Assembly: GCF_025822765.1 (NCBI RefSeq)
Contig: NZ_JACKUK010000023.1
Span: 124,001 to 188,000 of the forward strand
Direction: 5' to 3'
Source: Mycobacterium barrassiae
GTDB lineage: Bacteria > Actinomycetota > Actinomycetes > Mycobacteriales > Mycobacteriaceae
Length of the DNA stretch: 64,000 bases
Shown here: positions 43,948 to 58,187 of the stretch, piece after piece
How positions within the stretch are numbered: position 1 is the stretch's first letter
Layout: the number at the start of each line of letters is the position of its first letter
Made by a program: the position numbers and the translations under genes
The notes under the pieces: model-generated
Seen by the model: the letters and a program-made list of their open reading frames with translations, nothing else
Databases searched by the model: none
Told to the model about the DNA's origin: nothing

Positions 43948-44277
43948 GTGCACGAGATGGCGCTGACGCAGAGTGTTGTCGATGCGGTGTGCGAACACGC
44001 CGCAGGCCGGCGGGTGCACAGCGTGCGGCTCGAAGTCGGGGCGCTGTGTGCCGTCGTCCCCGATGCGATGACGTTCTGTTTCGAACTCGCGACCGAGGGC
44101 ACCGTCGCCGCCGGCGCCAGCCTCGAGGTCGACATGCGTCCCGGCGAGGCGCGCTGTCGCAGCTGCGGCACCAGCTTCGAGCTGAACGACCTGATCTTGT
44201 TATGCCCTTGCGGCAGTGCCGATGTCGATGTGATCGCCGGCCGGGACCTGAAGATCCTCTCGATGGAGGTGAGCTGA
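43948..44277 (+). CDS. hypA: Hydrogenase nickel-incorporation protein HypA
   Basis: 109 residues. It helps deliver nickel to the hydrogenase large subunit with HypB. The N-terminal Ni site M-H-E is intact (His2, Glu3), and a zinc site is formed by Cys70, Cys73, Cys86 and Cys88. GTG at 43948 is required because the Ni site must be at the N-terminus. It is the first gene of the 14-kb hydrogenase cluster, divergent from recA. A possible -10 TATGGT lies at 43913-43918, but no convincing -35 is seen. Confidence 0.95.
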
Positions 44278-44279
44278 GC

Positions 44280-45083
44280 ATGTGCGCAACATGTGGCTGC
44301 GGCGACGAGAGCGCGACCATCGCCATGCCTGGAGCGCAGTCCGGGCACTCCCATGATCACCCCCACCCCCACGTCCATCCTCATGACCATCCCCATGATC
44401 ACCCGCACACCGAGACCGTCTCGCTGGAACAGCGGGTGCTCGCCAAGAACGATCTGCTGGCCGAGCAGAACCGGCAATGGCTGGCCGAGCGCGGGATCCT
44501 CGCGTTCAACATCACGAGTTCACCTGGTGCAGGCAAGACCACGCTGCTCGAGCGCACCATTCGCCGCCTCAGGGCACAGCGCGACGTAGGGGTGATCGAA
44601 GGCGACCAGGAGACATTGCTCGACGCTGACCGGATCACCGCCGCTGGAGCGCGCGCAGTGCAGGTCAATACCGGAGCGGGTTGCCACCTCGACGCCGAGA
44701 TGATCGCGCGAGCGCTGCACACCCTGGACCCGGGCAGGGGCTCGTTGCTCTTCATCGAAAATGTGGGAAACCTCGTCTGCCCGGCCCTGTTCGATCTCGG
44801 TGAGCACAGCAAGGTCGTCGTCATCTCGGTGACCGAAGGAACCGACAAGCCGTTGAAGTACCCGCACATGTTCGCCGCGGCGGGCCTGGTGCTCATCAAC
44901 AAGACAGACCTGCTGCCGTATGTCGATTTCGACCTCGATCTCTGTGCGCGCCATGCCCGTTCGGTCAATCCCGACGTCGAGATCGTCCCCGTCTCGGCCA
45001 CCACCGGAGACGGTATGGATGGCTGGTACCGATGGATCGACGCGCGTGCAACCGACCTTCAGCCGTCTCCCACAAAAGTGTGA
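44280..45083 (+). CDS. hypB: Hydrogenase nickel-incorporation GTPase HypB
   Basis: 267 residues. N-terminal high-affinity metal motif C-x2-C-x-C (Cys2, Cys5, Cys7). A His-rich stretch at residues 23-43 has His at every second position (11 His), a nickel store. The SIMIBI-class GTPase domain follows (SPGAGKTT, about 81-88; [16 protein letters not shown] metal site; NKTDLL). It provides GTP-dependent nickel delivery. GGAGGTG lies 9 bases before ATG 44280, 2 bases after hypA. Confidence 0.96.
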
Positions 45084-45120
45084 TTGACAACACACTTTGA
45101 CGGGAGTAAACCCAGGTTTA
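45078..45120 (+). promoter_or_regulatory. Candidate internal promoter and operators upstream of hhyS
   Basis: GTGTG-N8-CACAC (45078-45095) contains TGTGA-N6-ACACA, one mismatch from the Crp consensus TGTGA-N6-TCACA. Inside it, TTGACA (45084-45089) is a perfect -35; 17 bases on is TAAACC (45107-45112), a weak -10. The latter lies in the perfect dyad TAAACC-CA-GGTTTA (45107-45120). This 114-base gap is the only sizeable gap in the cluster. Confidence 0.5.
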
Positions 45121-54998: not shown

Positions 54999-55316
54999 AT
55001 GTGCTTGGCGGTACCGGGGAAGATCGTCAGTATCGACGACCGTGACGGCACCTTGATGTCGGTCGTCGATTTCGGCGGAATCAAGAAGGACGTCTGCCTG
55101 GAGTACATACCCGACGCGGAGGTCGGCCAATACGTCGTCGTCCATGTCGGTTTCGCCCTTCAGCGGCTCGACGAGGAATCGGCGATGCGGACACTCGCGG
55201 AGTTCGAACACCTCGGCGTGCTGAAGGAGGAGTTCACCGATGGTTTCGAGCTGGCCGCCAGGCAGGCCGGTCTCGACAACCCGACCACTAACGGAAATAC
55301 CGAGGTGAAGCCATGA
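54999..55316 (+). CDS. hypC: Hydrogenase assembly chaperone HypC (copy 2)
   Basis: 105 residues beginning [12 protein letters not shown], so Cys2 and the VPG motif are kept. It continues [30 protein letters not shown], the usual HypC barrel, and has a longer helical C-terminus than copy 1. GGGAGG lies 6 bases before the ATG. Its stop overlaps the hypD start (ATGA). One of the two copies may serve HypD while the other is bound to HhyL, as HypC/HybG pairs do in E. coli. Confidence 0.93.
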
Positions 55317-56413
55317 AGTACCTGGACGAATTCAGCGACCCCCAACTCGCGGGCCGTCTCGTCGACGAGATCAAGGCCGCGACCAGTCAGCGGTGGTCGA
55401 TCATGGAAGTTTGTGGTGGACAGACTCATTCAATCATTCGCCACGGCATCGACCAGCTGCTGCCGGACACCATCGAGATGATTCACGGGCCCGGTTGCCC
55501 CGTCTGCGTGACGCCGCTGGAGATCATCGACAAGGCCCTCGAGATCGCGGCCCGTCCCGACGTGATCTTCTGCTCCTTCGGCGACATGCTGCGGGTTCCC
55601 GGCAGCGAGACGGACCTGTTCGGCGTCAAGAGCCGGGGCGGCGACGTACGGGTCGTGTACTCGCCCCTCGATGCGTTGAAGATCGCCAAGGAGAACCCCG
55701 CCAAGCAGGTGGTGTTCTTCGGAATCGGCTTCGAGACCACCGCACCCGCCAACGCGATGACCGTCTATCAAGCCAAACGCAACGGCATCGAGAACTTCTC
55801 ACTGCTGGTCTCCCACGTCCTCGTGCCGCCCGCGATCTCGGCGATCATGGAATCACCCACGTGCCGCGTGCAGGCCTTCCTCGCGGCCGGTCACGTCTGC
55901 ACCGTGATGGGGACCGAGGAGTATCCGCCGCTGTGCGACAAGTACGGCGTACCGATCGTCGTCACCGGATTCGAGCCGCTGGACATCCTCGAAGGCATTC
56001 GGCGCACGGTGCTTCAGCTGGAATCCGGTCGCCACGAACTGGAAAACGCGTATCCGCGGGCGGTACAGGCCGAGGGGAATTCCGCGGCCAAGGCCATGCT
56101 GCTGGATGTCTTCGAGGTGACCGACCGGTCGTGGCGCGGGATCGGCATGATCCCGAGCAGCGGTTGGCGGCTCTCATACGCCTACCGCGACTACGACGCC
56201 GAGCACCGATTCTCCGTCACCCACATCCACACCGAGGAATCGCACGTGTGCCGATCAGGTGAGGTCCTTCAAGGCCTGATCAAACCGCACCAGTGCGGGG
56301 CGTTCGGCACACTGTGCACACCGCGTAATCCTCTTGGCGCCACGATGGTTTCGTCGGAGGGCGCGTGCGCCGCCTACTACCTGTACCGGCGGCTGGAGGT
56401 GTCGAATGCCTGA
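55313..56413 (+). CDS. hypD: Hydrogenase iron-centre assembly protein HypD
   Basis: 366 residues. It is the scaffold on which the Fe(CN)2CO unit is built with HypC and HypE. Conserved motifs: CGGQTHS (Cys34), [10 protein letters not shown] (Cys62, Cys65), GFETTAP, and C-terminal cysteines for the 4Fe-4S cluster ([16 protein letters not shown]). Start overlaps hypC copy 2 by 4 bases; end overlaps hypE by 8. Confidence 0.97.
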
Positions 56414-57485
56414 CTTCCCCACCGAGCCCGGCGCCACCATCGACATGGAGGCCTGGGTCTGTCCTGCCCCCCTGCGCAATGCACCGAACATCGTGATGGG
56501 GCATGGCGGCGGCGGGGCGATGTCGGCCGAACTCATCGAGCACCTGTTTCTGCCCGCCTTCGGTTCGGCCGCCGACGCGGGTATGGGTGATTCCGCGGTG
56601 CTACCGATCGGCGATGTGCGGCTTGCCTTCTCGACCGATTCCTTCGTGGTCAAACCACTGGTTTTCCCCGGCGGGACGATCGGCGATCTGGCGGTGAACG
56701 GAACCGTCAACGATCTCGCGATGGCGGGGGCGCAGCCGGTGGTGCTGTCGACGGCGTTCATCCTGGAGGAGGGCACGCCGCTCGATGAACTCGCCCACGT
56801 CGCACACGCTGTGGGAACGGCGGCGATGGCGGCCGGCGTGAAGTTGGTGACCGGCGACACGAAGGTGGTCGACGCCGGCCACGGCGACGGCGTGTACATC
56901 AACACCACCGGGATCGGCCTTGTCGACGAACGCGCCGACATCCGTCCGCAGCGCACCACCGAGGGTGACGTGGTCATCGTCAGCGGCGATATCGGCACCC
57001 ATGGCGTCGCGGTGATGAGCTGCCGCGAGGGGTTGGAGTTCGGCACCACCGTGGCGAGTGACACCGCACCGCTGCACGGGCTCGTCGCCGCGATGATCGA
57101 CACGGGTGCCGACATTCACACGATGCGCGACCCCACCAGGGGCGGAGTCGCGGCGACACTCAACGAGATCGCCAGGACCGCCGGCGTCGGAATCTCGTTG
57201 GACGAGCGGGCGTTCCCGATCCCCGCCGAAGTCCGCGACGCCTGCGGGCTGCTGGGCCTCGATCCGCTGTATGTGGCCAACGAGGGCAAGCTGCTCGCAT
57301 TCGTCGCAGCCGATGATGCCGATGGTGTGCTGGACGCCATGCGGGCGCATCCGCTCGGCGCTCACGCGACGGTGATCGGTCGCTGTGTCGCCGAGCATCC
57401 CGGAATGGTGTCCGCCAGGACGGCGCTGGGCGGCACCCGCGTCGTCGACCTGCCCATCGGTGAACAACTACCGCGGATCTGCTGA
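56406..57485 (+). CDS. hypE: Hydrogenase expression/formation protein HypE
   Basis: 359 residues of the PurM-like ATPase fold: [14 protein letters not shown], the [31 protein letters not shown] region and [17 protein letters not shown]. It ends PRIC, so the C-terminal Cys that becomes the thiocarbamate/thiocyanate donor is intact. It dehydrates the carbamoyl group received from HypF to cyanide. Start ATG 56406 overlaps hypD. Confidence 0.97.
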
Positions 57486-58187
57486 ATGAGCGGGCCCGAA
57501 ACCTTTGCCTGCTACGCCTATCCACCAAACGAATTGGGGTATTGCGGCCCCGCCGAGGTCGCCCACCCCGACCTCGCCACCCATGCCCACGAGTTCGACG
57601 GTGCGTGGCCGTACCTGAAGGCCATCGCGGAGGCCGCAGGCGTGTCGGATCCGCTCGACGACGACGTCGTACGCAGCTATTGGGTCGGCGGACCGCTGCT
57701 GGACAAGGTCGATCCCGCCGAACTGTTGTCCCGCCTGCGTCGCGCCTTCACCGGCCAGATCACCGGACTGCTCGCTGATCTGCCCGACCGCGCACACGTG
57801 TTGGCCCACCACAGTTTTCACGTCTTCGTCGTCTACCCGTGGATCCGGTTCCTGGATCGCGACCCGGCCACGCCGTTGCGGGTCATGCAGGACTGCCGCA
57901 TACGCTGGGGGGTTGTCGACTCCGTCGCGGGAGATCACACCGACATCGTCTCTCGCCCACTGTCGTTCGACGACGGCGCGCTGGCGCTCGGGGCGCCCCG
58001 CATCGAGACAGTGCGGTGGCGCAAGGACGGGCAGTCGCTCGCCCCGCCGCCGAACCCTGGGGAAACCGTGTCGGCACACTGGGATTGGGTGTGCGGGGCG
58101 TTGAGCCATACGGACACCGATGCCCTCGCCAACGCGACGCAGACGACCCTCGACCTGGTCAACACCGTCCGAAGCGCCGCCTCCTGA
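57486..58187 (+). CDS. DUF6390 family hydrogenase-associated protein
   Basis: 233 residues, ATG directly after the hypE stop. Soluble, mostly helical; opens ACYAYPPNELGYCGP and has AHEFDGAWPYLKAIAEAAG, HHSFHVFVVYPW, RIRWGVVDSV and HWDWVCGALS segments. The His/Trp-rich stretches could bind a metal or haem, but no known motif is complete. It is the last gene of the cluster, 12 bases before the convergent DUF3046 gene. The family is found with actinobacterial [NiFe] hydrogenases; function unknown. Confidence 0.82.
   Translation: MSGPETFACYAYPPNELGYCGPAEVAHPDLATHAHEFDGAWPYLKAIAEAAGVSDPLDDDVVRSYWVGGPLLDKVDPAELLSRLRRAFTGQITGLLADLPDRAHVLAHHSFHVFVVYPWIRFLDRDPATPLRVMQDCRIRWGVVDSVAGDHTDIVSRPLSFDDGALALGAPRIETVRWRKDGQSLAPPPNPGETVSAHWDWVCGALSHTDTDALANATQTTLDLVNTVRSAAS

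Follow-up and report, generated by a model that had tools for sequence, protein, structure and literature searches.

Group 1h [NiFe]-hydrogenases are considered to account for an important share of the soil sink for atmospheric H2, and the closest described systems to the one considered here are Hhy (Hyd2) of Mycobacterium smegmatis and HofKG of the Cupriavidus necator plasmid pHG1. We examined a locus of this type in Mycobacterium barrassiae, within a stretch of 64,000 nucleotides (assembly GCF_025822765.1, contig NZ_JACKUK010000023.1, positions 124,001 to 188,000 of the forward strand; hereafter the window), where 16 consecutive genes on the + strand at 43948-58187 lie between recA and a DUF3046 gene and, by Pfam and NCBIfam matches, constitute a complete group 1h system (Table 1). 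The hydrogenase locus is an ordinary one, its kind being well studied in M. smegmatis.

In the M. smegmatis region, MSMEG_2722-2702, the available passages of two papers place hypA, hypB, the subunits, HhyE, the protease, hypC and hypF in the same order as in the window, but hypE, hypC and hypD are there MSMEG_2705, 2703 and 2702, with gene numbers left between them (PMC2799521, PMC6883350). That enzyme, called group 5 in PMC4109961, is the basis for a high-affinity role (see also PMC6883350; portions available of both), and by analogy the enzyme of the window would have high affinity for H2 as well; the term "group 1h" did not turn up in the available part of PMC12727194. The pHG1 locus shares with the window the order large subunit, NifU protein, DUF5947, DUF6084, hypothetical protein and protease, yet it is plasmid-borne, its hyp genes are ordered otherwise after the protease, its NifU protein is short and it has no match to the RNA described below. 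In that locus (L104), a gene at 13902-14957 labelled HypE stands immediately before the large subunit; judging by its position and size, it may well encode HofK, the small subunit.

Considered jointly, the evidence set out below makes it very likely, in our view, that this is a complete and conserved hhy locus for the oxidation of trace H2, that its structural genes have a promoter and an hya RNA leader of their own, and that its arrangement beside recA is old.

Identity and distribution of the hydrogenase

Both subunits have their best PDB match in 5aa5, the actinobacterial-type hydrogenase of Ralstonia/Cupriavidus, which we take to be a group 1h enzyme. The next distinct sequence scores only 167.9 bits against HhyL, and the next match of HhyS only 141.1 bits, both far below the scores of HofG and HofK (Table 1). 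These comparisons support the assignment to group 1h already made in an earlier reading of the window from its letters alone (the original prediction). HhyL carries both the L1 and the L2 nickel-ligand motif (TSRICGICGDNHATCS and SFDPCLPCGVHM, found in 75/80 and 80/80 related HhyL sequences), in forms that we presume to mark group 1h. The CDGDS motif of HhyS, read by eye in the window protein, aligns with HofK and recurs in 78 of 79 relatives scanned, the single miss being a frame that begins within the motif; in the 5aa5 work an Asp reportedly replaces one Cys of the proximal cluster in the small subunit. A Tat-like signal pattern was found in none of the 79 small-subunit relatives scanned. 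Huc (group 2a, PDB 7utd) is likewise a [NiFe] uptake hydrogenase of mycobacteria, but it matches HhyL with only 126 bits and HhyS with 97.6-98.9 bits, far under the 5aa5 scores, and a group 2a identity was consequently rejected. No Huc was seen at PF00374 level in the genome (5.90 Mb, 99.98% complete), which at that level holds one further [NiFe] large subunit, with an NAD-reducing hydrogenase as its best PDB match.

The alignment of HhyL to HofG stops at His576, the final residue of the HofG chain, and a protease cut of the 22-residue tail would therefore be expected. By analogy with described enzymes, HypA-F would assemble the NiFe(CN)2CO site in HhyL, the protease would trim the tail after His576, and HhyS/HhyL would oxidise H2, electrons passing via the small-subunit clusters to HhyE, perhaps also DUF5947, and then to the respiratory chain. 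Starved cells may in this way be able to live on trace H2.

HhyL occurs in 137 of 248 genomes of the genus (E <= 1e-100) and in 25 of 197 drawn across the phylum (E <= 1e-150), one copy among the latter (G379) being merely 43% identical. The 80 named loci used for comparison are the best 80 of 590 HhyL matches and are thus skewed to close relatives; among the matches listed, Mycolicibacterium tusciae has the nearest named HhyL (96%). The order hhyS, hhyL, NifU protein, DUF5947, DUF6084, 462-aa protein, protease, hypC is intact in all 73 named loci with full flanks. More distant HhyL relatives within the genus, at 71-72% identity, lie at G215:C328:165052-166824 (a second copy there) and G084:C1:4832037-4833791.

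Table 1 Features of the hydrogenase locus and its neighbours (positions within the window)
Feature	Position	Strand	Evidence
hypA, nickel metallochaperone	43948..44277	+	PF01155 108.6 bits; TIGR00100 barely above cut-off
hypB, nickel-incorporation GTPase	44280..45083	+	TIGR00073 280.3 bits, above cut-off
Promoter-like TTGACA-17-TAAACC before hhyS	45084..45112	+	similar pair in 57/78 loci
hya RNA (RF02992), structured hhyS leader	45120..45195	+	78.1 bits, gathering score 56.8; model 1-72, complete
hhyS, small subunit	45198..46253	+	5aa5_A HofK 542.3 bits
hhyL, large subunit	46284..48080	+	5aa5_C HofG 1073.7 bits; PF00374
hhyE-type iron-sulfur protein (NifU domain and C-terminal CxxC...CxxC domain)	48084..49064	+	PF01106
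DUF5947 protein	49064..49720	+	PF19372 247.4 bits
DUF6084 protein	49717..50385	+	PF19562 295.3 bits
orf462, 462-aa family	50382..51770	+	no Pfam, NCBIfam or credible PDB match; homologous frame in 75/80 named loci
DUF6893 small protein (40 aa)	51767..51889	+	PF21833 57.2 bits
Hydrogenase maturation protease, HycI-type	51909..52397	+	PF01750, TIGR00072
hypC1	52401..52676	+	PF01455, TIGR00074
hypF	52673..54982	+	TIGR00143 747 bits
hypC2	54999..55316	+	TIGR00074 76.7 bits
hypD	55313..56413	+	TIGR00075 491.3 bits
hypE	56406..57485	+	TIGR02124 429.1 bits
DUF6390 protein	57486..58187	+	PF19927 291.4 bits
recA with LAGLIDADG intein, left neighbour, divergent	41555..43708	-	family matches
DUF3046, right neighbour	58200..58394	-	PF11248 105.8 bits

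Companion proteins

All sixteen same-strand genes listed in the original prediction, with HhyS/HhyL, a full Hyp set and an iron-sulfur protein, were recovered. Its "four uncharacterised families" require some revision, as hand tallies from the tables of the 197-genome phylum draw separate them. DUF5947 occurs in 23 genomes (22 with HhyL), DUF6084 in 23 (21 with HhyL) and the 462-aa family in 25 (22 with HhyL, and one of the remaining three, G029, with a fragment only), whereas DUF6390 occurs in 15, only nine of which have HhyL. On this co-occurrence the first three are standard companions of group 1h, and DUF6390, found also in genomes without HhyL, is more general. Six cysteines of HhyE (C140, C143, C242, C245, C269 and C272) are conserved in 80 of 80 rows, the window included, and five of DUF5947 (C27, C30, C51, C53 and C56) are invariant in 35 rows. 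Alignment-based profile searches of PDB for the 462-aa family, DUF5947 and DUF6084 gave no credible match (lowest E 0.17). According to the passages available of PMC6883350, deletion of hhyE in M. smegmatis abolishes the Hhy activity stain, and MSMEG_2717 is named as an additional electron-acceptor candidate. We found no literature joining at least two of the terms DUF5947, DUF6084, DUF6390, DUF6893 and "hydrogenase".

The hya RNA leader of hhyS

The widest intergenic gap in the locus, 114 nt between hypB and hhyS, contains the only RNA found at Rfam gathering scores in 41000-60000, a full-length match to the hya RNA (RF02992), a family that Rfam types as cis-regulatory. It ends two bases before ATG 45198, which was taken as the hhyS start for this reason, and includes the ribosome-binding-site-like GGAAAG at 45184-45189. 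Both this RNA and the promoter-like sequence that precedes it had escaped the original prediction. In the literature searched, of which only the top entries were considered where lists were long, we found no function of the hya RNA.

Occurrence ties the RNA here to a single gene, hhyS of group 1h. A scan of the 248 genus genomes (E <= 0.001, with Infernal's stricter filters) matched it in 109, in 104 of them over the cut-off, and 106 of the 109 matches lie on the same strand 1056-1187 bp before hhyL, that is, just before hhyS. None of the other three genomes has an HhyL match: G029 retains remains of the locus, G216 retains nothing but the hya RNA with a promoter-like sequence and a short start, and the match in G161 (38.4 bits), with no hhy gene nearby, was taken as chance. 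At 7917-8002 (-), L112 shows a hya RNA that, together with a promoter-like sequence and a short start, stands orphaned, with no hhy genes. In the phylum draw the RNA was matched in four of 197 genomes, all of this genus.

To characterise the structure we used 49 leaders (alignment A4): from 78 leaders, a set that omits two loci cut too short, 51 were picked by loop motif and non-identity, and two insert-bearing ones (L006 and L007) were dropped. Across the 49, 97.4% of structure cells are paired, and doubly changed cells number 46, where shuffles average 11.7 and sliding the partners leaves 1-6, although the derivation of the structure from the same alignment gives it an advantage over the slid versions. 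Double changes affect six of the seven pairs of helix 1, and helix 3 also shows compensatory changes. With a model built on these leaders (R1), Rhodococcus and Antrihabitans loci show lower-scoring matches ahead of hhyS, and Nocardia loci show none there; a second hit of this model, at 20628-20721 of the window (18.3 bits, E 0.036), was taken as chance. Pairing between the loops, hairpin 1 GGGC with hairpin 2 G(C/U)3, is possible in 49/49 leaders, but was dropped as no evidence, because GGGC served in choosing the 49 and pairs in the predicted inner helix.

In L013, L015, L016, L019, L025, L029, L030, L055 and L065, hairpin 1 has been lost or can no longer be recognised, with a CAGCCC-type hairpin mostly retained (R1 below 28 bits or no match); hairpin 1 is kept in L020, L038, L053 and L072 of the same tree branch. 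By eye, two tandem CAGCCC-loop hairpins replace the normal leader upstream of hhyS in L019, L029 and L055. The pattern GTGA-N6-TCAC stands upstream of hhyS in 13 loci, namely ten of the 11 Nocardia loci and three others. In Nocardia loci such as L022, L046 and L071, which lack the hya RNA, GTGATCAGGATCAC-like palindromes in this position are reminiscent of CRP/FNR-family sites.

Transcription of the locus and role of the leader

Ahead of the leader, a TTGACA with a TA-type second element recurs in 57 of 78 loci, in a pattern fitted by eye to the leaders; the spacing is 14-18 nt (17 in 45, 18 in 11 and 14 in one), and the second element ends 79-89 nt before the hhyS start. The structural genes probably have a promoter of their own at 45084-45112, from which transcription would begin near the 5' end of the hya RNA, and hypAB would be read from a promoter closer to recA. 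The original prediction had taken the whole locus for one transcriptional unit, which upstream of hhyS our results do not support, and we think it improbable that a promoter between recA and hypA drives all 16 genes as a single transcript, with none in the hypB-hhyS gap. Such a transcript would suit the tight packing of the genes: at least six overlaps of one to eight bases had been claimed, and with the start codons chosen here we count seven (hhyE/DUF5947, 1; DUF5947/DUF6084, with GTG 49717, 4; DUF6084/orf462, 4; orf462/DUF6893, 4; hypC1/hypF, 4; hypC2/hypD, 4; hypD/hypE, 8), the other gaps being short. It would also suit a scan for sigma-70 consensus promoters, which flagged neither 45084-45112 nor anything else in the hypB-hhyS gap. 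Yet that gap holds TTGACA-17-TAAACC and the hya RNA, and in unlinked mycobacterial loci the structural block follows diverged hypAB (hypA 35-43% identical to that of the window); in L038 and L053 this block stands without any hypAB match. Moreover, M. smegmatis array ratios climb from 1.5 for hypA through 7.9 for hypB to 27.8 for MSMEG_2720 (hhyS), with 18.2 and 15.4 for MSMEG_2719 and 2718 (PMC2799521; first column, assumed to be slow growth, the header lying outside the available passage), a rise that fits a start before hhyS. A separate hhyS start and read-through from hypA are not exclusive, and read-through may add to the hhyS transcript. As for the leader, its conservation could reflect a DNA operator or merely an efficient translation start, with no regulatory RNA. 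An inverted repeat around the -35-like element (45067-45106) would accord with this, as would several loci that retain TTGACA and a hairpin yet have lost hairpin 1; the compensatory changes in helices 1 and 3, together with the Rfam classification as cis-regulatory, argue otherwise, and we judge this explanation rather unlikely. We favour instead a two-hairpin leader RNA ending at the hhyS ribosome-binding site, which most likely tunes the translation or stability of the structural mRNA; action after transcription start is suggested by its place within the mRNA, its end at the ribosome-binding site and the absence of a T-run after hairpin 2.

Several observations weigh against our overall reading. 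No hya match was obtained at E <= 0.001 in 31 of the 137 hhyL genomes, among which are 19 of the 29 scored recA-linked ones (ten have a match, including the genome of the window); the locus can thus do without the full RNA, whose presence beside recA is the exception. Because the 49 leaders were chosen by loop motif, the constancy of their loops partly reflects that choice. One pair of helix 1 in the window itself is non-standard, and the fold predicted for this leader leaves the AAA of GGAAAG about 90% unpaired but the GG only 30-40%, a partial accessibility from which no clear on/off state can be read. The failure of the sigma-70 scan to flag the proposed promoter belongs here too, as do three HhyL genomes of the phylum draw without DUF5947 (G275, G379 and G407).

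More tentatively, the hya RNA may serve the atmospheric-H2 hydrogenases of Mycobacterium and certain relatives as a leader dedicated to reading a signal, for example nickel, redox state or an assembly factor, and to setting accordingly how much hhyS, and with it the entire enzyme, is translated. On this view several lines within one Mycolicibacterium branch have lost hairpin 1, and CRP-like palindromes occupy the place of the RNA in hya-free Nocardia (10/11); we consider this reading possible, if somewhat doubtful.

The inverted repeat at 45067-45106 has 16-nt arms (81%), of which near relatives show, by eye, the inner part only. Terminator-like sites within the locus number 11 against 5.6 expected, counting both strands. 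DosST/DosR modulates the Hhy-encoding genes in M. smegmatis according to the available part of PMC13098282; a DosR-box consensus pattern (up to three mismatches) had no match within the window.

Placement beside recA

Linkage to recA was scored in the named loci whose sequence extends 5 kb or more ahead of hhyL (eight of the 80 fall short and were excluded), and recA lies upstream in 16 of these 72 and is unlinked in 56. Across the genus, recA is 2.5-4.8 kb from hhyL in 29 of 84 scored genomes, a count drawn from genomes among the recA matches listed, best first, and hence skewed to window-like recA; G247, with hhyL split over two contigs, was excluded, and draft contig breaks are able to hide linkage. 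A position common to 29 of 84 genomes points to an old arrangement. In M. smegmatis, recA is presumably MSMEG_2723, a neighbour of the Hhy locus.

The original prediction had the locus interrupting the recA-DUF3046 adjacency of M. tuberculosis, and comparison with genus genomes lacking hhyL bears out such a separation of the two genes. In 17 of 20 such genomes listed, out of 111 genus genomes without an HhyL match, DUF3046 is at most 1.5 kb upstream of recA in 13 and, on longer flanks, about 2.1 kb away in two more, so that the locus does split a common neighbourhood. DUF3046 follows the hhy genes in the linked loci with enough flank (L020, L038 and L084), and in L072 it lies between recA and hypA. 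The phrase "inserted beside recA" therefore holds when the locus is compared with the mycobacteria examined that lack hhyL, or with the loci of Nocardia and Rhodococcus, but the arrangement is old and shared.

That the locus reached this site by recent horizontal insertion appears to us very improbable. The recA-DUF3046 proximity in 15 of the 17 hhyL-less genomes examined and the unlinked loci of Nocardia and Rhodococcus are what a recent insertion would predict, and in a tree of the structural block (73 loci and the window; 16 linked and 54 unlinked rows) at least four changes of linkage are needed, a number that by our own reading of the tree fits two separate arrivals, whereas a single arrival needs five. 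However, the linked loci fall in two Mycolicibacterium branches that share an identical hypA-hypB-hhyS order and similar spacing beside recA. The identity of hypA to that of the window is 73-86% in the 15 linked loci that have the gene, compared with 35-43% in unlinked mycobacterial loci (65-74% in the Nocardia, Rhodococcus and Antrihabitans loci), and the G+C content of the locus, 0.63-0.67, falls within the 0.63-0.70 range of the window. Given the equal order and spacing, a single old arrival beside recA with later moves seems to us the more plausible history.

The locus is also subject to loss: in the hhyL-less genome G029, 111 kb from recA, there persist hypA, hypB, DUF6893, the protease and other hyp genes, together with fragments of hhyS and the 462-aa gene. 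A decayed locus in an hhyL-less genome (L105, 5057-14124) has hhyS fragments beside fragments of the 462-aa gene, with the hya RNA and hyp genes remaining and no match for hhyL, hhyE, DUF5947 or DUF6084.

Some features of the surroundings may be added. The recA intein occupies approximately residues 207-570 of 717, and open recA frames of more than 700 residues occur in seven of the 17 hhyL-less relatives examined. The 239-base gap common to recA and hypA contains a LexA-type box (43828-43843) with one mismatch to the mycobacterial consensus. Elsewhere in the genome, the second [NiFe] hydrogenase, of NAD-reducing type and with a diaphorase-like subunit, lies at 9131-13763 (-) of L085 (G000:C23:808000-826000), about 2 kb from a protein with phosphoribosyltransferase and erythromycin-esterase-family domains.

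Conclusions

The locus itself is one more example of a known enzyme type. Its comparison with relatives marks the 462-aa protein, DUF5947 and DUF6084 as companions of group 1h, and indicates that hya-based control may be absent from species whose leader is altered, many of which have the locus beside recA. The hitherto orphan hya RNA is now tied to hhyS, and a probable start site and ribosome-binding site go with it, which makes possible RNA-level control of a presumed high-affinity hydrogenase, and the signal behind it, testable.

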